DNA of 32,602 nucleotides. Source: an uncultured Bacilli bacterium (GTDB taxonomy: Bacteria > Bacillota_I > Bacilli_A > RF39 > UBA660). Below the pieces are notes generated by a model. It was given only the letters and a program-made list of their open reading frames with translations, was not told where the DNA came from and did no database searches. Within the stretch, counting starts at the first letter, position 1; each line of letters starts with the position of its first letter. The stretch covers positions 1-32,602 of the forward strand of contig CANRKL010000010.1 in the NCBI GenBank assembly GCA_947631205.1. The letters are read 5' to 3'. Of the stretch, positions 3,135 through 32,602 are shown piece by piece. A program made the position numbers and the translations under genes.

Positions 3135-4250
3135 TTAATATACAAAAATTACATTATCATAGTTAAAATTCCATTCAAAATTACTCATTAATTCTACTTC
3201 ATTATAATAATTAGAATATCCATATAATTTATCTCCGACAAGATAGTAGATAATATCATCATTTGATAAAATAATTTTTGAAGGGCTTTTTTGACTAATT
3301 ATAATTGGTTGATTTTTAATATTAATAGTTAAATTTTTTTCTTTAGAAAGTGTTACATCTTCCACTAAATAAAAGGGACGTTCATCTTTAATGATATCAT
3401 CAATTTTCTTTTCAACAAATTCTTTTTGATAAGTTATTCCCATTCCTTTTGAACTTACTTTTTTTAATTCTTTTTTTCGAGGATTAATTGTCCATTCAAC
3501 ATTTTCATGTTTATCAATTAAATACATTTTCTCTTTATATACTCCTAAAATAACACTGTCAAAATATATTTTTTCTTTTAAATTCCAAGTAGTAACTTTG
3601 TTATTTTTCATATTAATTATGTAAGCTTTATCAAAATAATAGTCTTGTTCATAATCAGGTACAAATAAATAATTATCAACTTTAGTTATTAAAGGGGCAT
3701 GATATATATCTTTATTAAATATTTTTAAATCAGTAATATTATTATCTTTAATTACACTAAAACCTTTGTAGTTATAGATATAATAAGTGTGATTTAAAGT
3801 AGAATAGACATTTATTTTATCATTGTTTAAATTAATTATTTGATGGTCATTAAAAAGATATTTTTCTAAATTTTTTTGCATTTTTTCACTAGTTAAATGA
3901 AAACTTATTTGTTCATCTTTTTGATAACATACTGGATACAAATAAACATAGTTACTATCCATTGTTAAACATATTTCATTTTCTTCTTCAAATACATTAA
4001 TATTATTAATTAATTTTTGATGACGCTTATAAGATTCTTTAGTAAGAGTTAAAAAATCTTTATTTTGATAATTTATTTTAAAGAAATATAAAGAAGTGTT
4101 TTTCTGATATTCTTCTTCTACTTTAATGTCATTAATATAATATGTTTTTTGATAATCTTTAGGAAACATATATTTAATTATAAATATTATTAAAAGTAAA
4201 AAAAGACAAAAGAAAACTATTTTATTTAATTTCATTTTGCCGATAGCCAT
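3135..4250 (-). CDS. Uncharacterised protein with an N-terminal membrane anchor
   Basis: 371-aa ORF; N-terminal hydrophobic helix KIVFFCLFLLLIIFIIKYMF; a start at MKLNK (4235) is an alternative. Confidence 0.65.
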   Translation of the reverse strand: MAIGKMKLNKIVFFCLFLLLIIFIIKYMFPKDYQKTYYINDIKVEEEYQKNTSLYFFKINYQNKDFLTLTKESYKRHQKLINNINVFEEENEICLTMDSNYVYLYPVCYQKDEQISFHLTSEKMQKNLEKYLFNDHQIINLNNDKINVYSTLNHTYYIYNYKGFSVIKDNNITDLKIFNKDIYHAPLITKVDNYLFVPDYEQDYYFDKAYIINMKNNKVTTWNLKEKIYFDSVILGVYKEKMYLIDKHENVEWTINPRKKELKKVSSKGMGITYQKEFVEKKIDDIIKDERPFYLVEDVTLSKEKNLTINIKNQPIIISQKSPSKIILSNDDIIYYLVGDKLYGYSNYYNEVELMSNFEWNFNYDNVIFVY

Positions 4251-4743: not shown

Positions 4744-6073
4744 TTATTTTAGGGTATGGGGATTTTCTTTTGTTCCTTCACCGACTACAATCTGTGTACT
4801 CGACCTTAGATAAGCGGCAGGGCGAACGGCACGAGCATCGTAGGCATAGTCGCCGAGCACGCGCCCGTCAGAATACACATAGAACACACGGTAAGCAAAC
4901 GACGAATGAGGGACAGGGGTTAAGGTCCATTGATAATTACTACTATCATATAACCAATCATTTCCTTTACAATCTGGACTACTTTCATTCCAGTTGACCA
5001 TACTTGTTGTTAAACATCTATTTCGGTCTTCTCCTCCTATTGCAAATCCATAGTCAGAGGGATACATAAGTCCTATATACCCATCCCATGTGGTTGTTCT
5101 TGGAACTTTATCAGTACAGTAATTTCCACTGTTGCATGTCTTTCCATTATGATTACTTCGTTCTGCTTGATATGTTGCATTTGCTAGCCACTCTGATGTA
5201 TTGTATGATTCAAAAGTTCCTGTATTCCATCTTACTTTCGCTAATTTGTTTCTTGCTTCCTTAGTTAATCCTATACTACTAAAATCACAAGCTGTCTGAC
5301 TATCTTTTGAACCGTTGTAGCATTGTCCACTTGTTTTTTTCCAATATGCTCCTGTATTTAATGTAGTCATTAAATCAGCTTGACTCCATTCATTTACTCC
5401 TTCTCCTCCGTTTACTCCGTTTGCTGATGAGTCCCAGCTCCAATTTCCTATGCTATCTGCTCTGATTATTTTGACTAAATTCTCTGTGTTACTTATTTCT
5501 CCATATTCATCTACTACTGGTATATTTTTCATTGCTCCTATTATTCGCCATAGGATTTTTCCTCCACTAGAGTCTCTATCTCCTATATCTATATAATTGT
5601 TTGGGTTTGCTCCTATATATCTTAAATTATTATCATATGTATCATCATAGGCAAACATAGAAGGATTTTTTTCTTTTAAGCTTTCAATTTGTCCATAATC
5701 TTTTTCAGTAAAGTATAATGTACATTTGGTTTTAGTTTTAGTTATATTTAATACTTTTGGAGCCCATGACGCATTATCCCATTCAACACTGGCACCATTG
5801 CTACATTCAGCATGCTCAAAATATAAGCCTGCTCCTTTCTTAGGCATTTCATCTAGTTGTTGGTCACTTCCTTTATAAAACGCAAAGAAAACATCGCCAC
5901 TACCTTCATACTGTACTGTCCCTTCCATCACTTTAAAACTGACACTTTCTTGGTAGTTGGCATAACTTTTATTTATTAAATACCCCCCCCCCAGCGCATA
6001 TTACGCCAAGGGCTACCGCAAAAGTCATAAGTTTCTTTTTATTATTTTTCTCTTTATATTTGTCTATTCTCAT
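4744..6073 (-). CDS. Copy A: phase-variable secreted Cys-rich paralogue, OFF at G10 (frameshifted); ORF body 4744..5931
   Basis: Conserved ATG at 6073 opens MRIDKYKEKNNKKKLMTFAVALGVICA, then G10 (5983-5992). With G9 it continues GGGYLINKSYANYQESVSFKVMEGTVQYEGSGDVFF... into the ORF; as sequenced it ends GGGVFNK*. Confidence 0.8.
5983..5992 (-). repeat. G10 homopolymer in signal-peptide codons (copy A switch)
   Basis: taccccccccccagcg on +; 10 C counted. Confidence 0.95.
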
Positions 6074-6146: not shown

Positions 6147-8033
6147 CTATACTTTTTTACTACGTCCTGTTCTTTCCCAACCAGATACACTTTTTTTTGC
6201 ACTCCACATAGTTTCTTCTCTAATTACTTCACCATCTATCTTTGTAGCTTTTATTTTATCAGTACTAGTATATTTATAGCACTTATCTCCACTTAATTCA
6301 TAACCACTTGGACATTTATAAGATACAAATTCTTTAATTTGGTCTTTTACACAACGATTATTAACTAATCTTGCTGCACTATCTTGGCAATAGTAATATG
6401 ATTTTGTAGTTTTTGATTTAGAACATTTAGTACTTCCCCCTGTTCCTGTTTTAGTATAACCTTGTGGGCAAGTGTAAATTTCACTTCCACTTTTAGTTTT
6501 AGCAGTTACCTTTTTAATACAAGTTTTGCCATTTAACTGATAACCACTTGGACATTTATAAGTGGTACTTATATTTTTAGTAGCTTTAACGGTTTTTTGG
6601 CATTCATTTCCTACTTTAGTATAACCACTTGGACATTTAATTGTTGCAGCTGTCTTTATTGGAGCAAGAGTATCTACGTAACATTTAGTTTCTGTTCCAT
6701 TTAAAGTGTATCCACTGTCACAATATTTTACTAAATAACTACTTTTATATACTTTACATTTACCATTTTTGTAATAAGTTCCACTAGGACAATCATAACC
6801 TGATATAGTTCTTGTATATCTTTTATAACGACTTAAGCCATTGCTACCTACACCCGCAAATTCATAAGTAATTGTATTGGAATTTTTAGGAGCTGTTTTG
6901 TATTGATATATGTTATCTAATTTCCAATTAGTGTATAAGGGATTAGCATTTACATAGACATAGCAACTTTCTTTATTTTTATCATAAGTTCCTTTTGTAC
7001 AACGATATTTTACAGAAGAAGTTAAACGACATATTGATTTGCCTATTAAAGTTCCATTATTACAAGAATATGTAGCAGGAACTTTAGTTCCTTTAGTTTT
7101 AATTATGCAATTTGTTCCGCTTAAAGTTCCAGAAGTACAACTGTAGTTAGTTTTATTTGAAGCTGTTGCATTAATTGTTTTTTGACAAACACCATTTACT
7201 AATTGGTATCCACTGTCACAATAAAGAGTAGAAGCACTTTTGGTAACAATTGGATTAGCATACTCATATTCAGTCTTTGGTGCAGAATAATTTGCCGCTG
7301 TATTAGAAGCTGGAATTACTTTATATTTAGGAGTTGCGTCCACGGTTAGTAGTTTAGACTCGCTATAGCAATATTGACCATTTAAGACAAAACCATCTGG
7401 GCAATCATAACTTTCTGCTGACCTAACTTGTTTTTTATATTCATAAATAGTGGTCAAAGAAGTATCACTAGTAGTATTATTATTTTCATTAGAAGTATTA
7501 TTTGAACTATTTTCTTTTACTTGTTCATCTTTTTTTTCTTCGGTATCTTTATTATCTTTAGTTGTTGTTTTAGTTTCTTTATATGTAACACTATAATCTT
7601 TTTCTTTAGAATCTCCATTACATAATAAGTAAATATGTAAATTATATTTAGTTGCACTTTCTTTAGTTAAACTAGCATAGCTATTTTCTTTATCACACAC
7701 ATTTTTCTTTTTGTCTTTTAGTTCACTAATAAGTGAAGAGTTTATCATATCTTGCAGTGTTAAATCGTATTCTTCATCAACACTATTTGGTCTATTTTCT
7801 TCTTCTTTAAAATAAGTATAAGCCCCTGCTCTCATCATTTCTACATTTTTATCAAATATTTTTTCGCTACTATCCCCTTTTAATTTAGTAAAAACATAAA
7901 TAAAGAGAAAAGCAAAAGCTAATAAAATGGCTAATTTGATTACTATTGAAACCCAATCAGCTTTAAAAGATATTTTTTTAACTTTCTTTTCATTATCTTT
8001 TATTTTTTCAGTTTTTTCTTTTTCTTCGTACAT
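6147..8033 (-). CDS. Membrane-anchored Cys-rich repeat protein
   Basis: N-terminal TM (VIKLAILLAFAFLFIYVF), then many C-P/x-S/x-G-Y-x-L/K-x-G-x-x-C units (CPSGYELSGDKC, CPSGYQLNGKTC, CDSGYQLVNGVC). Confidence 0.75.
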   Translation of the reverse strand: MYEEKEKTEKIKDNEKKVKKISFKADWVSIVIKLAILLAFAFLFIYVFTKLKGDSSEKIFDKNVEMMRAGAYTYFKEEENRPNSVDEEYDLTLQDMINSSLISELKDKKKNVCDKENSYASLTKESATKYNLHIYLLCNGDSKEKDYSVTYKETKTTTKDNKDTEEKKDEQVKENSSNNTSNENNNTTSDTSLTTIYEYKKQVRSAESYDCPDGFVLNGQYCYSESKLLTVDATPKYKVIPASNTAANYSAPKTEYEYANPIVTKSASTLYCDSGYQLVNGVCQKTINATASNKTNYSCTSGTLSGTNCIIKTKGTKVPATYSCNNGTLIGKSICRLTSSVKYRCTKGTYDKNKESCYVYVNANPLYTNWKLDNIYQYKTAPKNSNTITYEFAGVGSNGLSRYKRYTRTISGYDCPSGTYYKNGKCKVYKSSYLVKYCDSGYTLNGTETKCYVDTLAPIKTAATIKCPSGYTKVGNECQKTVKATKNISTTYKCPSGYQLNGKTCIKKVTAKTKSGSEIYTCPQGYTKTGTGGSTKCSKSKTTKSYYYCQDSAARLVNNRCVKDQIKEFVSYKCPSGYELSGDKCYKYTSTDKIKATKIDGEVIREETMWSAKKSVSGWERTGRSKKV

Positions 8034-9104: not shown

Positions 9105-10034
9105 ATGAACTGTAATAATAGTGATTATCAAAGAGCATATAATTATGTAAAAAATGCTCAGAAAAACTCTTTTATTCAAGGGTGTTGTTGTGGTAGACAA
9201 TTACCAGGGCCTACGGGGCCTACGGGACCAGCTGGACCAGCAACTATCGATGTTGGTACTACATCAATAGGTATCCCAGGAAGTTTACCAAGTGTTACCA
9301 ATAGTGGAACTAATCAAAATGCAGTTTTAGATTTCATTATTCCAGCAGGACCAACGGGACCTATTGGACCTACTGGACCACAAGGAATTATAGGGCCAAC
9401 TGGGCCACAAGGTGAGATTGGACCTACTGGGCCTACGGGGCCTACAGGACCTATTGGACCTTTAGGACCGACAGGAGAGACAGGTCCTGCACCAACTTTA
9501 CAAGCAAATGCCACTACTGTGTTACCAGGAGAGGATGCCGAAGTCCAAGTTGTTAACAATGGTAATGGAGATTATACTTTAAATTTTTCTATTCCAGAGG
9601 GACCAACAGGACCTGCTAATGGCTTAAATGCTTATGGTGGTCTTTATTCAACAGGAGCTACTACTCTTTCTTCTACTTCTAGTGGAACTCCTGAGACTAT
9701 CCAAATGAATACTGAACTTCCAGCTTTAAACGTTACAACAAATACTGGAGCTTATTCTATAACTATTCCAAGTGACGGTAATTATTCTATAACTTATAAT
9801 GCGGTTATTAATTTAACAACAGCAGGGGCATCAACTTTTTCTATAAGAACAGGTGGCTCTGATGTACCTGGAAGTACATTAAATGTTACACCTCAAACAA
9901 GTCAAGATATGGACGTTTCTTATAGTTTTATTGCCACTTTAAATGAAAATGACGAATTAACTTTTGCTGTTGAAGGTAATGGACTAGATGGTCAAGTAAA
10001 ACAAGCTTCTGTGGAAGTTTTAAAATTAAATTAA
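9105..10034 (+). CDS. Collagen-like (GPT repeat) BclA-type surface/exosporium-like protein
   Basis: [11 protein letters not shown]...[35 protein letters not shown] repeats, N-terminal CCCG cluster, C-terminal beta-rich domain; SD aaaggag upstream of ATG. Confidence 0.88.
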
Positions 10035-14049: not shown

Positions 14050-15432
14050 TTACTCATATTCAGTTATTTCTTTTTCATCTATTTCATCAACAAATAAATA
14101 TTTGTGCAATTCTATCATTGTATGTATTATTCTTTTTTCAATTAACATAATAAATGGAATTGGATCTTCTTCTAAATCCATTTTTGATAATGCTTCATAA
14201 TATTCTCTTCTACATTTTTGGTCAATATAAATTGGAGGTATCTTCTTTTTACTTAAAAGCCAATTCATAATAGCTCTTGATATTCGTCCATTTCCATCTC
14301 TAAATGGATGAATAACAATAAACTTGTAGGTAAAATATACTACTTGTTCTATATATTCACCTATTTCATATCGGTCTATATTTTTCATAAAAATTTGTAA
14401 TTCTTCATCAAGTTCATTAATTCTTTCATTTATTTCATAATAAGGAATTGGTTGTATTGTTCCTCTTTTTAAAACTACAGTTCCATCTCTATATTTACCA
14501 TTATCATCAGGATACGGAACATATTTAAATAATAATGAATGTAGTTGCTTACATTTTTTAAACGAAATATCGTCTTTTGTAGTAATTACATATTGTTGCA
14601 ACTCAAAATTACCGAGTGTCATTACTATTTCTTCATTGTCACTTTCAAAAAATTGACTATCAGCTCCATTAAAATTTAAGTCTGCTAATATATAATTCAA
14701 TTTTTTTCTATCAATTATTACACCTTCAAGTTTATTATCGTTATAAATATAATTTTGCAAAAATTTTTTCCACGTATATTTATTAATATCAGCCATTATA
14801 AAACTCATTGAACTTATGACATTTGATAATAATACACTATCAATTTTATTACTTATTAATTCTTGCCTTTTAGATGATACTCCATATTCACGCATTCTTT
14901 GTCTTAATGATTCAGAAGATATATCACCTTCTATCATATTCAAATCATAGGCAATTCTATTTAAACATGAATAGAAACTAACACCGAAATATTCAGCTAT
15001 TATTGTAATATTTTCAAAATTAATAAATCCATCTTCATTTTTGTATTGTTCACATAATATTTTTAGTTCTTCAGTAGGCATGAGTAAATACCCAGCAAAG
15101 TCATTTGCATATTTTTCTATTTTTTTACTTGAACGTTTTAAACACTCAATGTAATCTGTTGTCCCCTTTTCTTTATTTAAATCTTTTATAAAATGACAAT
15201 ATTCATGCGCAGCAGTAAATCTTTGCCTTTGCAAGCCATTATTTGAATTAATTCCTACAATTGTACAATTATCTTCATCGTTGATAATGATTCCATCTAA
15301 ATTTTCAAAATCTTTTAATACAATATATATGCCAGCATTACGGAGAATTTTAAATGGGTCTATTGGAAAAGTTAATTTGCTATTTTTTCTTAATTTTTCT
15401 AATTCACTTTTAGCTAATTCTTCTGGTGTCAT
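14050..15432 (-). CDS. ImmA/IrrE metallopeptidase - Fic domain fusion protein
   Basis: N-terminal RFTAAHEYCHFIKD (HExxH) and C-terminal Fic motif HPFRDGNGRISR; YNDNKLEGV resembles the inhibitory helix region. Confidence 0.9.
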   Translation of the reverse strand: MTPEELAKSELEKLRKNSKLTFPIDPFKILRNAGIYIVLKDFENLDGIIINDEDNCTIVGINSNNGLQRQRFTAAHEYCHFIKDLNKEKGTTDYIECLKRSSKKIEKYANDFAGYLLMPTEELKILCEQYKNEDGFINFENITIIAEYFGVSFYSCLNRIAYDLNMIEGDISSESLRQRMREYGVSSKRQELISNKIDSVLLSNVISSMSFIMADINKYTWKKFLQNYIYNDNKLEGVIIDRKKLNYILADLNFNGADSQFFESDNEEIVMTLGNFELQQYVITTKDDISFKKCKQLHSLLFKYVPYPDDNGKYRDGTVVLKRGTIQPIPYYEINERINELDEELQIFMKNIDRYEIGEYIEQVVYFTYKFIVIHPFRDGNGRISRAIMNWLLSKKKIPPIYIDQKCRREYYEALSKMDLEEDPIPFIMLIEKRIIHTMIELHKYLFVDEIDEKEITEYE

Positions 15433-15436
15433 ATTA

Positions 15437-15784
15437 CTAATCCTTATTGTGTGACTTTAAAATATTTTTATATTCGATTAAACTAATAATCTCTTTTTTG
15501 TCTTTTTCACTAAGTTTATTAAATCCTCTTGCAAAAGCTACATCACTGTTACTAATAGTATAGTTATCTTTTGTTAATTCATCTATACTTATATTATATA
15601 ATTTTGAAAAATTCATTAATTCCTGCAAATCAATTTTACGTTCACCTTTTTCAATTCTTAATATTGCATCTCTACCTATTTTTAAAATTTCAGCAACTTG
15701 TTCTTGGGTTAATCCCATATATTTTCTAAGTTTTCTTAGTCTTTCGCCTATTTTTTTATAATTTAATTTTTCCATATGAATCAC
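15437..15784 (-). CDS. XRE-family HTH regulator, likely partner of the Fic fusion
   Basis: IGERLRKLRKYMGLTQEQVAEILKIGRDAILRIEKGERKIDLQELMNFSKLYNISIDEL. Confidence 0.9.
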   Translation of the reverse strand: MIHMEKLNYKKIGERLRKLRKYMGLTQEQVAEILKIGRDAILRIEKGERKIDLQELMNFSKLYNISIDELTKDNYTISNSDVAFARGFNKLSEKDKKEIISLIEYKNILKSHNKD

Positions 15785-23808: not shown

Positions 23809-25161
23809 TTAATTTACTCCCTCTATTACAAAGGGATTACTTTGGCTTCCATAATTACTTGCAGAATTTGGTTTTATTTTTACACTGCTTTTTAAATATG
23901 CAGTTGGTTTAATGGTAAAATTAGTACCATAGGCTTGGTTATAAGCTACTTGTCCAGCAGACCCTATAAAAAAAACAAAGTGACCTTCATATAAATTAGG
24001 ATATGACGTTATGGTCCACTGATTATTATAAATATCACGTATCCAATTATTACTTTTACAATCGGGACTACTATCACTCCAACTAAGCATGGTTTTTGCT
24101 AAACATTCTGTTCTTACATTTCCTCCTACGGCATAGCCATAATCTGACGGATACATTAGTCCTATATAGCCATCCCATGTTGTTGTTCGTTCTACTACAT
24201 CATTGCATTCAGCTTGACCACTTCTACATTGTTCTTTTCCGTTATGATTACTTCTTTCAGCTTGGTACATATAACTTGCTGTTGGATTATATTTAAAGCT
24301 ACTAATAGAAGTATCATCTGATACTGTTCCGGTATTCCATCTTACTTTAGCTATTTTATCTTTGACACTTTCGGTAAGTCCATCGACCGTAAAATTACAG
24401 TCTTTTTGACTATTTTTTGAACCATTGTAGCATTGTCCGCTTGTTTTATTCCAATACAAACTGTTACCAATTTCACTATCTTTCGTATATATGTCTTCTG
24501 GATTTAATAATTTCATAACGTCAGCTTGGCCCCATTCATTCACTCCATATCCATTGTTTACTCCACTCGCTGATGAATCCCAACTTAATTTTCCAATACT
24601 ACCTCTAATGATTTTGACTAAATTTTCTAAGTGGGTTTCACTACTCTCATCAACTACTGGGACATTATTCATGACTCCTATTATTCGCCATAAGATTTTA
24701 TTACCATTAGAATCTTTATCTCCTATATCGATATAATTATTTGGACTACTTCCAATATATCTTAGATTTTCATCATTTGTATCATCATATGCTAATGTTG
24801 TTGTGTCTGTTTCTGATAATTTAAATAAATAATCATTAGCTATATTTTGGGCAAAATATAGATTACATTTTGTTTTATTCTTTGTCATATTTGTTACTAT
24901 CGGTGCCCAATTTTGATAATTCCACTCAACACTTGCGCCATTATTGCATTCAGCGTGTTCAAATCCTAAGTTTTCTGTATTTCCTTTTTGAGGCATGGTT
25001 GTTAATTGTTGGTTTCCATTAAAAAATGCTAAGTAAACATTATCGTTAATATTATTCTTTTGAGGTACTTTAAATATCTTAAAGCCATTTAGAATATCAA
25101 TTAATAATATAAATAATATTATAATTATTAAAGTTTTTTCTTTATTTATATATTTTTTCAT
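23809..25161 (-). CDS. Paralogue B2: secreted Cys-rich family member without polyG tract
   Basis: MKKYINKEKTLIIIILFILLIDIL N-terminal helix; family motifs AECNNGASVEWNYQNWAPI..NKTKCNLYF, WDGYIGLMYPSDYGYAVGG, C-term NPFVIEGVN. Confidence 0.8.
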   Translation of the reverse strand: MKKYINKEKTLIIIILFILLIDILNGFKIFKVPQKNNINDNVYLAFFNGNQQLTTMPQKGNTENLGFEHAECNNGASVEWNYQNWAPIVTNMTKNKTKCNLYFAQNIANDYLFKLSETDTTTLAYDDTNDENLRYIGSSPNNYIDIGDKDSNGNKILWRIIGVMNNVPVVDESSETHLENLVKIIRGSIGKLSWDSSASGVNNGYGVNEWGQADVMKLLNPEDIYTKDSEIGNSLYWNKTSGQCYNGSKNSQKDCNFTVDGLTESVKDKIAKVRWNTGTVSDDTSISSFKYNPTASYMYQAERSNHNGKEQCRSGQAECNDVVERTTTWDGYIGLMYPSDYGYAVGGNVRTECLAKTMLSWSDSSPDCKSNNWIRDIYNNQWTITSYPNLYEGHFVFFIGSAGQVAYNQAYGTNFTIKPTAYLKSSVKIKPNSASNYGSQSNPFVIEGVN

Positions 25162-25169
25162 ATCTTACC

Positions 25170-26568
25170 TCAACTTTCTAACTCAAATGGATTTGCTTGA
25201 CTTCCATAATTACTTTCAGAATTAGCTTTTATTTTTATATTACTCTTTAAATACACAATTGGTCGTACTGCAGAAGCACCGTCAGCACGCGTATAATCCA
25301 AATGGCTATTATATTCAATTCGAAATACATAGTATGCAAGATTCTTATTAGGAATAGAAGTCAACGTCAATTGGTCTGTTGATAATAACCAATTTGATTT
25401 ACAACTTAAACTACTTTCATTCCAGTTATACATACTATTATTTAAACATTTGTCACGATAGTTTCCACCAATGGCATACCCATAATCTGATGGGTATATG
25501 AGTCCGATATACCCATCCCATGTAGTACTTCTTTCTACTGTGTCATTGCATTCATATCCACTGCTGCAAAATTTCTTTCCATGATTGTCACTTCGTTCTC
25601 CTTGATACATATATATCGCACTTGTTTTATTGTAATTTTTTGAATATTCGTCTGGCATTGTTCCTGTATTCCATCTTACTTTGGCTATCTTATCTTTCAC
25701 GGTTTCAGTTAATCCTGTACTTCTAAAATCACATGTTGTTTGACCATTGTTCGAACTATTGTAACATTGTCCCACAGCCTTATTCCAATACAAACTGTTG
25801 CCAATTTCGCTATCTTTTATATATATATTTTCTGGATTTAATAATTTCATTAAATCAGCTTGACTCCATTCATTCACTCCATAACCCATATTTACTCCAT
25901 TAGTTCCACCTGTTGATGAATCCCAACTATATGCGCCTATACTATCTGCTCTTATTATTTTTACTAAACTTTGACCATTATTTTCACTTTCATCATCATT
26001 AATAACTGTCATATTATTCATGACTCCGATGATTCGCCATAAGATTGGATTATTTGAACTATCTCTATCTCCTATATCTATATAATTTTTGGGACTACTT
26101 CCAATATATCTTAAATTTTCATCATTTGTATCATCATATGCTAAATTAACAGTATCTTTATCAGCTATGTCGTAAATTGTATCACTAGCAACTTTTGGTC
26201 CAAAATATAATTTACACTTTGTTTTACTTTCTTTTAAATTAGTTATCATAGGTGCCCATCTGTTTCTATTCCATGAAATACTGGCTCCCTTATCACATTC
26301 AGCGCGTTCAAATGCTAAATTATCTACATTATCTTTAACTGGCATATTCTCCAAAACAGTATTTCCATTATAAAAAGTTAAAAATATATCTCCGCTACCT
26401 TCATACTGCACTGTCCCTTCCATCACTTTGAAACTCACACTTTCTTGGTAGACTGCATAACTTCTATTTATTAAATACCCCCCCCCCAGCGCATATTACA
26501 CCAAGGGCTACCGCAAAAGTCATAAGTTTCTTTTTATTATTTTTCTCTTTAAATTTATCTATTCTCAT
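25170..26568 (-). CDS. Copy B1: phase-variable paralogue, OFF at G10; ORF body 25170..26438
   Basis: ATG at 26568 opens MRIDKFKEKNNKKKLMTFAVALGVICA then G10 (26478-26487); G9 would read GGGYLINRSYAVYQESVSFKVMEGTVQ... Confidence 0.8.
26478..26487 (-). repeat. G10 homopolymer (copy B1 switch)
   Basis: ttaaatacccccccccccagc context read as 10 C. Confidence 0.93.
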
Positions 26569-26648
26569 GACTTTCCTCTCTTTCTATTATCTACATCATA
26601 CCACAAGAGTCTTTCATTTTAAAGTATTAAATTTTTCTCCACAGTCAA

Positions 26649-26675
26649 AAAAACACCAACATTTTTGTTAGCGTT
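26649..26675 (-). terminator. Cassette terminator
   Basis: Minus strand AAACGCTAAC-AAAAAT-GTTGGTGTTTTTTTG. Confidence 0.7.
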
Positions 26676-26691
26676 TCATGAAAATTTAAAT

Positions 26692-28014
26692 TTAATTTAC
26701 TCCCTCTATCACAAAGGGATTATTTTGGCTTCCATAATCACTTGCAGAATTTGGTTTTATTTTTATGTTTCTTTTTAAATATGCGGTAGGAAGAACCGAT
26801 TTAGTATTAGAAGCAAAGTCATCATCTATAATCGGAACTAAATAGAACACTTTGCTGGCATAAGACAATTCTGTAGATGGGATTATGCTCCAGGTGCTAC
26901 TACCATATAACCAATTATTTTCTGTACAATTATAACTACTATTATTCCATTTATATATAGTTATGGCAAGACAATCATCACGTTTGTCCCCTCCAACAGC
27001 ATATCCATAATCTGACGGATACATGAGACCTATATACCCATCCCAGGTTGTTTTCCGCTCTACTGGGTCATTACAGTAACTTCCTCCGCTGCTGGCACAT
27101 TGTTCTTTTCCATTATGACTACTTTGTTCAGCAGTATATAACATTTTGACATTAAATTTTATATCATTATTATATACAGTACTACTATATGCTTCTCCTA
27201 AAGTTCCTGTATTCCAGCGCACTTTGGCTAAATCGTTTTTGACACTTTCTGTTAATCCTGTACTACTAAAATCGCAAGTTGTTTGTTTATCACTAGAACT
27301 ACTGTAACATTGTCCGCTCTCCTTGTTCCAATATGCTCCTTTGTTTAAAGTAGTCATTAGGTCTGCTTGACTCCATTCGTTCACTCCTCTGCCACTGTTT
27401 ACTCCACTTGCTGACGAGTCCCAACTCAACCATCCTATGTTGTTTGCTCTAATGATTTTTACTAAGCTTTCTCCTGTACTTTCACTTTTATCGTCATTTA
27501 TGACCGTCATGTTATTCATAACTCCTATTATTCGCCATAAAATTGGTTTATTACTAGAATCTCTATCTCCTATATCGATATAATTATTGGGATATTTTTC
27601 GATGTATCTTAAATTATTTTCCTCTGTTCTATCATAGACTAAATTAATTGTATCTGTCTCTGCTAATTGTTCTATGTAATTATTGATTAGATTAGGTGCA
27701 AAATATAATTTACATTTGGTTTTACTCTTTGTTATATTTGTTATTATTGGTATCCAATTTTTTCTGTTCCATTCGACACTTGCACCATTGTCACATTCTG
27801 CATGGTCAAACCCTAAATTTTCTGCATTTCCTTTCTTGGGCATTTCATTTAACTTTATATTTCCATTATAGAATGATAAGTAAATATTTTCTTCTTTTTT
27901 GGTATTATACTTTTTATAAATATTAATAAATTGAAATATTGTAAATATTAATATAATAAATAGAATAACTATGTTTACTTTTTGACATTTATCTCTACTT
28001 AATTTTTTATTCAT
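26692..28014 (-). CDS. Paralogue C2: family member without polyG tract
   Basis: MNKKLSRDKCQKVNIVILFIILIFTIF helix; AECDNGASVEWNRKNWIPI..SKTKCKLYF; WDGYIGLMYPSDYGYAVGG; NPFVIEGVN. Confidence 0.8.
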   Translation of the reverse strand: MNKKLSRDKCQKVNIVILFIILIFTIFQFINIYKKYNTKKEENIYLSFYNGNIKLNEMPKKGNAENLGFDHAECDNGASVEWNRKNWIPIITNITKSKTKCKLYFAPNLINNYIEQLAETDTINLVYDRTEENNLRYIEKYPNNYIDIGDRDSSNKPILWRIIGVMNNMTVINDDKSESTGESLVKIIRANNIGWLSWDSSASGVNSGRGVNEWSQADLMTTLNKGAYWNKESGQCYSSSSDKQTTCDFSSTGLTESVKNDLAKVRWNTGTLGEAYSSTVYNNDIKFNVKMLYTAEQSSHNGKEQCASSGGSYCNDPVERKTTWDGYIGLMYPSDYGYAVGGDKRDDCLAITIYKWNNSSYNCTENNWLYGSSTWSIIPSTELSYASKVFYLVPIIDDDFASNTKSVLPTAYLKRNIKIKPNSASDYGSQNNPFVIEGVN

Positions 28015-28025
28015 TTTTTCCTACC

Positions 28026-29469
28026 TCAACTTTCTAACACAAAAGGATTAGATTCACTTCCATAATCACTTGCTGAATTAGCTTTTATTTTTATATTGCC
28101 TTTTAAATAGGCAGTTGGATATATGTTCGTAGATTCGGAGGCATTTCTCATATACAAGGTTCCAATCGATATAATAAACACATTGCTAGCAGACGAATAA
28201 GATAAAGGGGTTATGGTCCATTGCAAACTTTTTAACCAAGAATTTTCATTGCAAAACATTATACTAGTCTTATCCCATCTATCCATAGTTGTACGAAGGC
28301 AACTATCCCTATCATTTCCTCCGACGGCATATCCAAAATCACTTGGATATATTAAACCTATATACCCGTCCCATGTCGTTGTTCGTTCTACTTTATCAGT
28401 ACACTCGTCTTGAATAACACTACTACTGGCACATTGTTCTTTTCCATTATGATTACTTCTTTCCGCTTCATATAAATTTGATACTATTAAATTATTATCA
28501 AATACTACTCCTTTCATTGCTCCAGTATTCCATCGTACTTTAGCTAACTTTTCTTTCGCAATATCCGTGAGTCCTGTACTACTAAAATCACAGGTTGTTT
28601 TAGCATTTTCTTCGTCTCTATAACATTCTCCACTTTTTTTATTCCAATATAAACTATTATTAATATAGGAACTTTGCATAACCCCCGTTGAGTTTTCATA
28701 TTTATTTTCCTCGTATCCAGAATTTAAAAGCTTCATTAAGTCAGCATCGCCCCATTCGTTTACTCCTAATCCACTATTTTTGAGATAATGTGATGAGTCC
28801 CAACTATATGACCCTATGCTGTTTGCTCTAATAATTTTAACTAAACTATCTCCATAACTTACGGTTTCATCGTCATTTATGACTGTCATATTATTCATGA
28901 CTCCTATTATTCGCCATAAGATTGGATTATTTGCACTATCCCTATCCCCAATATCTATATAATTTTTTGGATATTTTCCAATGTATCTTAAATTATTATC
29001 ATATGTTCCATTTCCCATTAACATTTCTATTCCATCATAGGCTAAATTAGTTGTGTCTTTTTTTGCCAATTTTTCAAAATAATCATTAGCTACATTTTGT
29101 GAAAAATATAAGTCACATTTGGTTTTACTTCCATTTAAATTATTTACTATTGGTGTCCATTTTTTCCTATTCCATGAAATATGTGCACCTTTATCACATT
29201 CAGCATATTCGAAGGACAATCCTTCTGGATTATCTTTAACTGGCATATTCTCCAAAACAGTATTTCCATTATAAAAAGTTAAAAATACATCGCCACTACC
29301 TTCATACTGCACTGTCCCTTCCATCACTTTGAAACTCACACTTTCTTGGTAGACAGCATAACTTCTATTTATTAAATACCCCCCCCCCAGCGCACATTAC
29401 GCCTAGGGCTACCGCAAAAGTCATAAGTTTCTTTTTATTATTTTTTTCTTTATACTTATCTATTCTCAT
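28026..29469 (-). CDS. Copy C1: phase-variable paralogue, OFF at G10; ORF body 28026..29339
   Basis: ATG at 29469 opens MRIDKYKEKNNKKKLMTFAVALGVMCA then G10 (29379-29388); G9 restores GGGYLINRSYAVYQESVSFKVMEGTVQ. Confidence 0.8.
29379..29388 (-). repeat. G10 homopolymer (copy C1 switch)
   Basis: attaaataccccccccccagcg, 10 C counted. Confidence 0.93.
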
Positions 29470-29540
29470 GACCTCACTCTCTTTCTATTATCTTAAGTTT
29501 ATCACATCACTCTTTTATTTTAAAGTATTAAATTTTTCTA

Positions 29541-29840
29541 AGGGTGTAAAAAAAAAATCCGGGGTAAATCTCAAGAAAAAATACTACAAACAGTTTTAAT
29601 TTACCAGTACTTAGAGAATAATAAAGATAAGATAGATTATTCTACCTATGAACATAAGGGATATTTTGTTGGATACTACAAAGATTAAAACAAGCAGGGA
29701 TAAAATGGAGTGTGAATGGAGCTAATTATTTAATAGCTAATATACTTTCAAGAAAGCGGACGTTGGAAATAAATAGAAAAAAGTAGTTAATTTTTTGAAT
29801 TGATAACTACTATTTTACCCCGGAAAATTTTTTACACCCT
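29541..29840 (+). mobile_element. 300-bp internally deleted IS / MITE-like element
   Basis: TIRs agggtgtaaaaaaaaaatccggggtaaa / (RC) agggtgtaaaaaattttccggggtaaa; flanking 7-bp TSD ttttcta (29534-29540, 29841-29847); internal remnants QTVLIYQYLENNKDKIDYSTYEHKGYFVGYYKD* and KQAGIKWSVNGANYLIANILSRKRTLEINRKK*. Confidence 0.85.
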
Positions 29841-29858
29841 TTTTCTAACCAATCAAAA

Positions 29859-29885
29859 AAACACCAACATTTTTGTTAGCGTTTC
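29859..29885 (-). terminator. Cassette terminator (copy of 26649-26675)
   Basis: aacaccaac-atttttgttagcgtt, same stem-loop as the other cassette. Confidence 0.7.
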
Positions 29886-29897
29886 ATAAAATTTAAA

Positions 29898-31262
29898 TTA
29901 ATTAACTCCTTCTAACACAAAGGGATTGCTTTGGCTTCCATAATTGCTTGCAGAATTTGGCTTTATTTTTATATTACTTTTTAAATAGGCTACTGGAAAG
30001 ATATTATCTGTACTAAAAGCAGCAAAATGAGAAATATCTACACTAATATTAAATACTTGAGTAGCACTCCCACTATAAGGTGTTGATATCATACTCCATT
30101 TACTATATTTAGACATTAGCCAAAGCCAATCATCACTATAGCATTCATATGGACTATTACGCCATTTATATATGCTTGTTGCTAAACATGAGTCTCTAAC
30201 ATTAAACTTATTTCCAACGGCATATCCATAGTCAGATGGGTACATCAATCCTATATAGCCATCCCATGTAGTATGCCTTTCTACTTTATCATTGCAATAA
30301 TTTCCACTGCTACAAAACGCCTTTCCATGATTCTCACTTCTTTCTCCTTTATAGAAGGCCTTCGCATTATATTTTATATCATCATTATATGTACTACTAC
30401 TAGTACAATCATCTGGTAATGTCCCTGTATTCCATCTTACTTTGGCTATCTTATCTTTGGCAGTTGAACTTAATCCTGTACTACTAAAATCACAAGTTAT
30501 TTTTGAATCATTTTTATTATTATAACATTGTCCGCTCTCCATATTCCAATACAAACTATTTCCAAATTCACTATCTTTTATATATATATCTTCTGGATTT
30601 AATAATTTCATTATGTCAGCCTCACTCCATTCATTAACCCCAGTACCATCATTAACTGCACTTGTTGATGTGTCCCAACTCCATTCTCCTATGCTATCTG
30701 CTCTTATTATTTTGACTAAATTTTCTCCTATACTTTCAGTTTTATTATCACCTACAACTGTCATATTATTCATAACCCCTATTATTCTCCATAAGATTGG
30801 CTTATTTGTGCTATCTCTATCTCCTATATCTATGTAATTATTTGGATTTTCGCCTATATATCTTATATTAACATCATTAGTATCATCATAAGCTAAATTT
30901 GTTGTATCTTTATCGGCTAATCTTCCAAAATAATCATTAGCTAAATTAGGTGCAAAATATAAATTGCATTTTGTTTTATTTTTTGACATATTTCTTACTA
31001 TTGGTGCCCAATTTTGATAATTCCATTCAACACTGGCTCCATTATTACATTCAGCGTGTTCAAATCCTAAGCCTTCTTCATTCCCTTTCCCTGGCATCTC
31101 AGTTAATTGTTGGCTTCCATTATAGAATGCTAAATAAATATCATCTTTAATATTATTATTTTGAGGTACTTTAAATATCTTAAACCCACTAATAATCTCA
31201 ATTAATAATGTAAATAATATTATAATTATCAAAATTTTTTCTTTATTTATACATTTTTTCAT
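29898..31262 (-). CDS. Paralogue D2: family member without polyG tract
   Basis: MKKCINKEKILIIIILFTLLIEIISGFKIFKVPQNN N-terminus near-identical to B2; same family motifs; NPFVLEGVN. Confidence 0.8.
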   Translation of the reverse strand: MKKCINKEKILIIIILFTLLIEIISGFKIFKVPQNNNIKDDIYLAFYNGSQQLTEMPGKGNEEGLGFEHAECNNGASVEWNYQNWAPIVRNMSKNKTKCNLYFAPNLANDYFGRLADKDTTNLAYDDTNDVNIRYIGENPNNYIDIGDRDSTNKPILWRIIGVMNNMTVVGDNKTESIGENLVKIIRADSIGEWSWDTSTSAVNDGTGVNEWSEADIMKLLNPEDIYIKDSEFGNSLYWNMESGQCYNNKNDSKITCDFSSTGLSSTAKDKIAKVRWNTGTLPDDCTSSSTYNDDIKYNAKAFYKGERSENHGKAFCSSGNYCNDKVERHTTWDGYIGLMYPSDYGYAVGNKFNVRDSCLATSIYKWRNSPYECYSDDWLWLMSKYSKWSMISTPYSGSATQVFNISVDISHFAAFSTDNIFPVAYLKSNIKIKPNSASNYGSQSNPFVLEGVN

Positions 31263-31270
31263 TTCTTACC

Positions 31271-32602
31271 TCAACTTTCTAATACAAAAGGATTACTTGA
31301 ACTTCCATAATCACTTGCAGAATTCTTTTTTATTTTAACAGAAAACTTCAAATAGGCAGCAGGACGAACAGCAAGTTTATTGTAACCAGAATATTTTTTT
31401 ATGCCACCGTCAGAATCCACTTCGAACACATTGTAAGCATATAACGAATCAGGGACAGGTGTTATCGTCCATTGGTCATTATAGTCTAATCTTAACCAAT
31501 CATTACTTTTACAATCCGGGCTACTATCATACCAGCTATATATGCTTCTTTTTAAACATTCTGTTCTTACATCTCCTCCTACTGCATACCCATAGTCTGA
31601 CGGATACATCAGGCCTATATATCCGTCCCATATTGCTTGCCTTTCTACTGAGTCAGTACATCCACTTTTTCCACTGCTTGTACATAACTCTTTTCCATTA
31701 TTACTACTTCGTTCTCCTTCATACATATAACTTGCTATGGTTTTACTTTCAGCACTAGAATAAACAAAATCATCTTTAACTGTTCCAGTATTCCATCTTA
31801 CTTTGACTAATTTATCTTTGACACCCTCCGTGAGTCCTGTACTGCTAAAATTACATGTTGTTTTAGCATCATATTCGCCATTGTAACATTGTCCACTTGT
31901 TTTATTCCAATATGCCCCAGAGTTTAAAGTAGTCATTATATCTGCTTGACTCCATTCATTTACTCCAAATCCTGAGTTTATACTGTATTCTGATGAGTCC
32001 CAACTATATGTCCCTATGTTTCTATCTCTAATGATTTTCACTAAAGATTCTCCAGTACTCTTACTTCCATCTTCACCAACAACTGTCATATTATTCATAA
32101 CTCCGATGATTCGCCATAAAATTGGTTCTCCATCTGAATCTCTATCTCCTATATCTATGTAATTATTCACTGTTTTCCCAATATATCTTAAATTACCATC
32201 ATCGGTATCATCATAAGCTAAGTTAATAGTATCTTTATCAGCTATGTCATAAATTGTATCACTAACAACTTTTTCTCGAAAATAAACTTTACATTTTGTT
32301 TTACTTTCTTTTAAATTAATTACCATAGGTGACCATTTATCTCTAATCCATGAAATACTGGCTCCTTTGTCACATTCAGCGCGTTCAAAACCTAAATTAT
32401 CCGGATTATCTTTAGGAGGCATAGTATCTAATACAGTATCTCCCTTGTAAAATGTAAAAAAGACATCGCCACTACCTTCATAGTTTACTGTCCCTTCCAT
32501 GACTTTGAAACTGACACTCTCTTGGTAGTTGGCATAACTTCTATTTATTAAATACCCCCCCCCCAAGCAACATTGCACTTAGGGCTACCGCAAAAGTCAT
32601 AA
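31271..32602 (-). CDS. Copy D1: phase-variable paralogue, OFF at G10; 5' end runs off the window
   Basis: ..LMTFAVALSAMLL then G10 (32555-32564); G9 restores GGGYLINRSYANYQESVSFKVMEGTVNYEG; body ORF as in track. Confidence 0.75.
32555..32564 (-). repeat. G10 homopolymer (copy D1 switch)
   Basis: ttaaataccccccccccaagc, 10 C counted. Confidence 0.93.

Follow-up and report, generated by a model that had tools for sequence, protein, structure and literature searches.

The variable C-termini of a large paralogous protein family are very likely explained by a diversity-generating retroelement (DGR) that acts in trans on genes dispersed over the chromosome and is overlaid by a layer of poly-G tracts, although, in the absence of strain or read data, neither ongoing diversification nor tract switching has been observed. 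The family was recognized in a stretch of 32,602 nucleotides (hereafter the window, contig C10) from an uncultured Bacilli bacterium (RF39; UBA660), the genome of which is represented by 1.15 Mb in 68 contigs, is 88% complete and breaks in the assembly at the repeats in question. Apart from the C-type-lectin fold of the target domain, which has not been demonstrated, the DGR features looked for are all present, namely a DGR-type reverse transcriptase (RT), a template repeat (TR) adjoining the RT, variable repeats (VRs) at the 3' ends of the targets, differences concentrated at template adenines, and an Avd-type gene; the RT is intact in relatives, the genome's own copy, on contig C46, being broken. 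A single template matches at least 20 dispersed genes; that it reaches them by retrohoming is an inference, drawn from which sites are substituted and which genes are present.

The target family in the window and across the genome

The window encodes seven paralogous proteins of 395-454 aa, all on the minus strand, of which one (gene A) stands apart and six lie within 23809-32578 (Table 1). The body and the tail of these proteins are conserved in all seven, and the approximately 32 codons that separate them, flanked by the WDGY..YPSDYGYAVGG block on one side and by the YLKxx tail on the other, are variable, both in 7/7 window paralogues and in 54 C-termini extracted genome-wide. The VR of gene A is in frame, with the stop 72 nt further; the start of this gene, ATG at 6073, was placed by translation upstream of the tract.

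Table 1. Family genes, variable repeats and G tracts of the window
Feature	Position	Strand	Remark
Gene A (type I)	4744..6073	-	N-terminal membrane segment from ATG at 6073, G10 tract, body 4744-5931 in other frame; remote DGR target
VR of gene A, fresh, at the 3' end of the gene	4819..4915	-	non-adenine template sites 68/68 identical, adenine sites 20/29 changed
G10 tract of gene A, out of frame	5983..5992	-	
Type II paralogue	23809..25161	-	VR-equivalent unlike template
Type I paralogue	25170..26438	-	VR-equivalent unlike template
G10 tract of the 25170-26438 gene, out of frame	26478..26487	-	
Type II paralogue	26692..28014	-	VR-equivalent unlike template
Type I paralogue	28026..29339	-	VR-equivalent unlike template
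G10 tract of the 28026-29339 gene, out of frame	29379..29388	-	
Type II paralogue D2	29898..31262	-	MKKYINKEK.. membrane segment, without G tract; VR-equivalent unlike template
Gene D1 (type I)	31271..32578	-	former DGR target
Decayed VR of D1	31361..31457	-	non-A sites 52/68 match inferred template; blastn match to TR = first 51 bp only
G10 tract of D1, out of frame	32555..32564	-	

A sequence-only reading that preceded this analysis had described a C-terminal region hypervariable among the paralogues, which held for all seven, and had suggested that these genes might be remote targets of a DGR or descend from such a target, which also held, most genes of the interval to which it assigned the feature (23809-32480) being descendants. 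That interval excludes gene A, although the reading quoted this gene. It contains mostly decayed descendants rather than current targets, and the best target of the window, gene A, lies outside it; the five genes that it holds besides D1 show no resemblance to the TR at the DNA level. Paralogues with VRs that no longer match the TR are inferred, from sequence alone, to be former targets or ordinary relatives. The same reading had held that the differences between A and D1 fit template adenines, and this is borne out for A and only partly for D1, in which the first 51 bp remain template-like and the rest is decayed.

Several other genes of the window were noted in passing. The strand of gene A also encodes, immediately upstream of it, a membrane protein in which Cys-rich 'CPSGYxxxGxxC' repeats are numerous (6147-8033); a protein with GPTGPTGP collagen-like repeats and a C-terminal domain (9105-10034) resembles BclA-type spore-surface proteins; and a protein combining a peptidase-like N-terminal part (HEYCHF) with a Fic-like motif (HPFRDGNGR) (14050-15432) adjoins an HTH regulator (15437-15784).

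Across the genome, about 50-60 paralogues of the window proteins are dispersed. The 21 VRs are in frame near the ends of their open reading frames, contain no stops and are located 72-93 nt before the stop codon, except for one at a contig end, where the frame is cut 63 nt past the VR. They are attached to three kinds of N-termini: type I, MRIDKFKEKNNKKKLMTFAVALGVMCA-GGG-YLINRSYA..; type II, MKKYINKEKTLIIIILF.., which lacks the tract; and type III, MDKKTI-GGG-LLNKKIVIILLILTI... The family proteins are inferred to be membrane-anchored, which is likely, and probably reside at the surface.

The fold of the target domain is less clear than its variability. Structure models are confident (pLDDT 88 and 93), and the folds closest to them are those of phage DUF6273 proteins; for the C-terminal part, the closest is an IgA peptidase of Thomasclavelia ramosa (9qa6; E 2e-8, TM 0.51). 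Known CLec chains in the PDB gave only weak local matches, so the C-type-lectin-like character proposed by the earlier reading has not been demonstrated. No Pfam match above cut-off was obtained for single window proteins (DUF6273 was marginal), a PDB sequence search with the family profile returned no match, and full-length Foldseek comparison with the PDB yielded nothing significant.

The retroelement cassette and adenine-specific variation

The only RT of the genome is encoded on contig C46, adjoining another paralogue of the window proteins; no second RT was found in the assembly, with the 88% completeness given above. The gene order on C46 is target gene (91-1299), an ORF of 100 aa, TR (1703-1800), a gene for a MutS domain I-like protein, Avd and RT. 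The TR spans 98 bp, matches the motif proposed by the sequence-only reading and has adenine at most variable sites, so both items that the reading had proposed to search for were found: a template of about 100 bp with A at variable positions, near Avd and RT, and the RT itself, albeit frameshifted. The RT contains the IGNLTSQ and YMDD motifs and matches PF00078 and the PHROG RT; Avd matches PF22296 (2e-11) and the PHROG family 'Avd protein of DGR' (2e-14); and the 120-aa MutS domain I-like protein, encoded between TR and Avd (C46, L032, 1955-2317), has a Pfam match above cut-off. The 3' end GCCGTTCGCCCT is shared, which is seen by sequence only and bears on the IMH / 3' hairpin of DGRs. As a side observation, the MutS-I-like gene is also present in the intact cassettes of relatives, and an ORF related to the 100-aa one (C46, L032, 1399-1701, between target and TR) is located beside the RT in L230, L241 and L242.

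The central evidence is the distribution of differences between template and VRs. When the observed TR alone is used, corrected for one extra T, 17 well-aligned VRs differ from it at 211/357 adenine sites (59%) versus 127/1292 other sites (10%; p=6e-80). Eight columns (35, 36, 41, 42, 68, 69, 74 and 75) account for most of the apparent 'non-A' differences; at these columns the VRs contain three or four different bases, as they do at true adenines. An inferred template was obtained by placing A at these eight columns, which gives VPNSSNANNVFNVNSDGNVNNNNANNANAVRP, a string of AAY codons plus one GAC. Compared with this template, 21 VRs (97 bp, near the 3' end) are changed at 356/609 adenine sites (58%) and at 40/1428 other sites (2.8%), with an odds ratio of about 49 and p about 1e-178. 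This adenine specificity in remote VRs accords with the suggestion of the earlier reading. All 68 non-adenine sites are intact in six VRs, including that of window gene A, and many other VRs are decayed relative to the inferred template. Because the template uses AAY codons, its 15 variable codons give access to about 10^17 protein sequences with no stop codon reachable.

The inference of the template is partly circular, in that at eight positions it rests partly on the VRs themselves, but TR-like sequences of other species of the genus (L079-L087) have adenine at 27-29 of the 29 inferred positions. In one relative, G004, which has a real, unbroken TR, 47% of the adenine sites of the VRs are changed versus 5% of the others (p=3e-48), a conservative estimate given that the TR itself was kept among the sequences counted. 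Non-adenine sites of the VRs follow the TR of their own species, in the sequenced species as well as in G004.

The named relatives that were found stem mostly from gut MAGs labelled uncultured Bacilli, Tenericutes or Erysipelotrichaceae, and close relatives are present in rabbit and chicken gut sets; the sequenced organism is itself probably a gut bacterium. Some kind of RT match was detected in 30/37 genomes of the genus, and family matches in 36/37, with up to 59 each; several species have 30-60 paralogues each. Intact cassettes of RT, Avd, MutS-I-like gene and TR are found in G004, G008 and G032, with RTs of 356-358 aa. The intact TR of G004 encodes nearly the same N-rich string as the inferred template; the Avd of G004 matches NF033474 at 1.8e-13, which is under the cut-off of that model.

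On C46 itself, the RT is disrupted by frameshifts between about 2920 and 3060 and by a premature stop near 3512, and the TR contains one extra T and departs from the inferred template by eight A-to-T/G changes. Given that the cassette of this genome is broken, activity in the sequenced strain may be recent rather than current. Two possibilities remain, that the element died recently, the VRs then being recent fossils, or that an intact copy, absent from the assembly, wrote them. The eight TR substitutions all fall on template adenines, in four complete AA pairs (C46 1703-1800; hypergeometric p=3e-5); the TR might have been overwritten by a mutagenised copy, and an assembly chimera is not excluded. 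A second TR was considered as the source of the VRs and rejected, only one having been found in the assembly; the non-adenine bases of this TR fully match the freshest VRs, and therefore one template lineage is enough.

Poly-G tracts as a probable second layer

The genome contains 57 tracts of at least nine G, of which about 49 are located in family genes, directly before or after the membrane segment. Most family genes carry such a tract (G9-G11) inside the reading frame. The 49 family tracts comprise 43 of G10, four of G9 (on C4, C20, C50 and C41) and two of G11, all four tracts of the window being G10. Because the typical tract is G10, the intact body is out of frame with the N-terminus; only the G9 tracts (4/49) are in frame. 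The gene on C4 combines an in-frame G9 tract with a fresh VR (67/68 non-adenine sites).

In two relatives, G004 and G002, the tract lies outside the reading frame, in the promoter spacer between -35 and -10, with a TTGACA box on one side and a TATAAT-like box on the other. An intact family ORF lies 23-32 nt downstream of 6/8 tracts in G004; in the G002 stretches taken, a large ORF follows 13/14 tracts, seven of these ORFs matching the strict family motif and most of the remainder judged by eye to be related. This promoter-spacer pattern is present in 29/37 genomes, the reversed control giving zero except in G004 (4). The number of tracts correlates with the number of paralogues (Spearman 0.68, p=4e-6), without correction for shared ancestry. 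Taken together, the tracts likely indicate slipped-strand phase variation atop DGR diversification; switching, its effect on expression and length variation within populations are all inferred, and none has been observed.

G9-G11 tracts also occur in a few non-family loci, including an Ig-like repeat protein, membrane proteins and a promoter spacer (L249, L250, L251, L252, L255 and L259), so the tracts are distributed more widely than the DGR family.

Proposed mechanism, alternatives and known systems

In the proposed mechanism, a complex of Avd and RT would copy the RNA made from the single TR into cDNA, introducing errors at adenines. This cDNA would then replace the VR of any paralogue that has kept its match to the template, a retrohoming step deduced from the pattern of substitutions and from the genes present. 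The C-terminal window of about 32 codons in the family proteins would thus be rewritten in trans. Slippage of the G9-G11 tracts would probably switch single copies on and off, and the cell is inferred to hold many pre-diversified copies while displaying few at once. A bolder reading, towards which the evidence leans without settling the matter, is that the two layers are coupled: one template would rewrite the binding tips in dozens of paralogues, most of them silent, and slippage at the poly-G tracts would select the copy displayed.

The strongest alternative, a serious contender that nevertheless falls short of the preferred reading, is that this lineage no longer has a working DGR: the VRs would predate the breakage of the RT, and present divergence within the family would be due to ordinary mutation and recombination. 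In its favor are the frameshifted and truncated RT and the extra base in the TR on C46, the many decayed VRs and the lack of a second RT in the assembly. Against it, six VRs retain 68/68 non-adenine sites, which means that any loss would have to have happened very recently, the assembly remains incomplete and breaks at repeats, and cassettes are intact in relatives.

Less plausibly, the poly-G tracts might not be switches, the body being reached via programmed frameshifting, transcriptional slippage or a translation start downstream of the tract. The prevalence of exactly G10 (43/49 family tracts), which is more uniform than free slippage might give, counts in favor of this view and against switching, and internal ATG/GTG codons follow the tract. 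However, copies with G9 and G11 exist, the tract of the relatives is in a promoter spacer where the reading frame is irrelevant, and a downstream start would lose the membrane segment. Finally, origin of the variable block by gene conversion among paralogues or by diversifying selection, without a retroelement, has the many paralogues and conserved flanks in its favor, and surface proteins are often under diversifying selection, but is all but excluded, given the presence of TR, Avd and RT and the concentration of changes on template adenines, because neither process knows the bases of a template.

If the trans-acting DGR with its poly-G layer is correctly interpreted, it represents an unusually large two-layer system for varying the cell surface, and a large natural system in which to study DGR action in trans, template-target co-evolution and target decay. 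The pairing with poly-G would further suggest that random diversification is usable without showing every failed variant. What sets the system apart from described cases is how many remote targets a single template has, together with this pairing. No case of a DGR together with poly-G phase variation was found in the literature searched, where most subscription papers were out of reach, and the highest number of targets for a single genome there is 15, from nine loci (PMC10907252). Most of the DGRs surveyed possess roughly one target (36,611 targets / 31,007 DGRs, PMC8144416), and 21 cyanobacterial genomes together yielded 76 remote targets (PMC7517822). VR copies are reported to number in the hundreds in certain genomes (PMC6642488), but the example is called atypical, with few A-to-N changes.

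The Bordetella phage BPP-1 DGR (mtd/avd/TR/brt) resembles the present cassette in the order of TR, Avd and RT and in the adenine-specific TR-to-VR change at the target 3' end; the best PDB match of the intact RTs of relatives is 8ub7, which is taken to be the BPP-1 RT. BPP-1, however, has one target beside its cassette, in contrast to at least 20 dispersed bacterial genes per template here, and lacks the extra MutS-I-like gene; E. coli has served as a host for it (PMC12875486). In Thiohalocapsa PB-PSB1 (PMC10907252), cellular DGRs likewise have several targets, some diversified in trans, but these are the 15 targets from nine loci mentioned above, whereas here at least 20 depend on one template, in a genome of only 1.15 Mb that also carries poly-G tracts. 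The Treponema denticola DGR (PMC4891356) also has remote targets, mostly predicted surface lipoproteins, but only seven or eight per genome, and its accessory gene is HRDC instead of Avd plus MutS-I-like. The poly-G surface genes of Neisseria, Campylobacter and Helicobacter (e.g. PMC6321876) resemble the present family in that many of them have a G tract, either early in the coding region (5') or in the promoter spacer; there, however, the tracts are not paired with a DGR, whereas here the same genes carry VRs.
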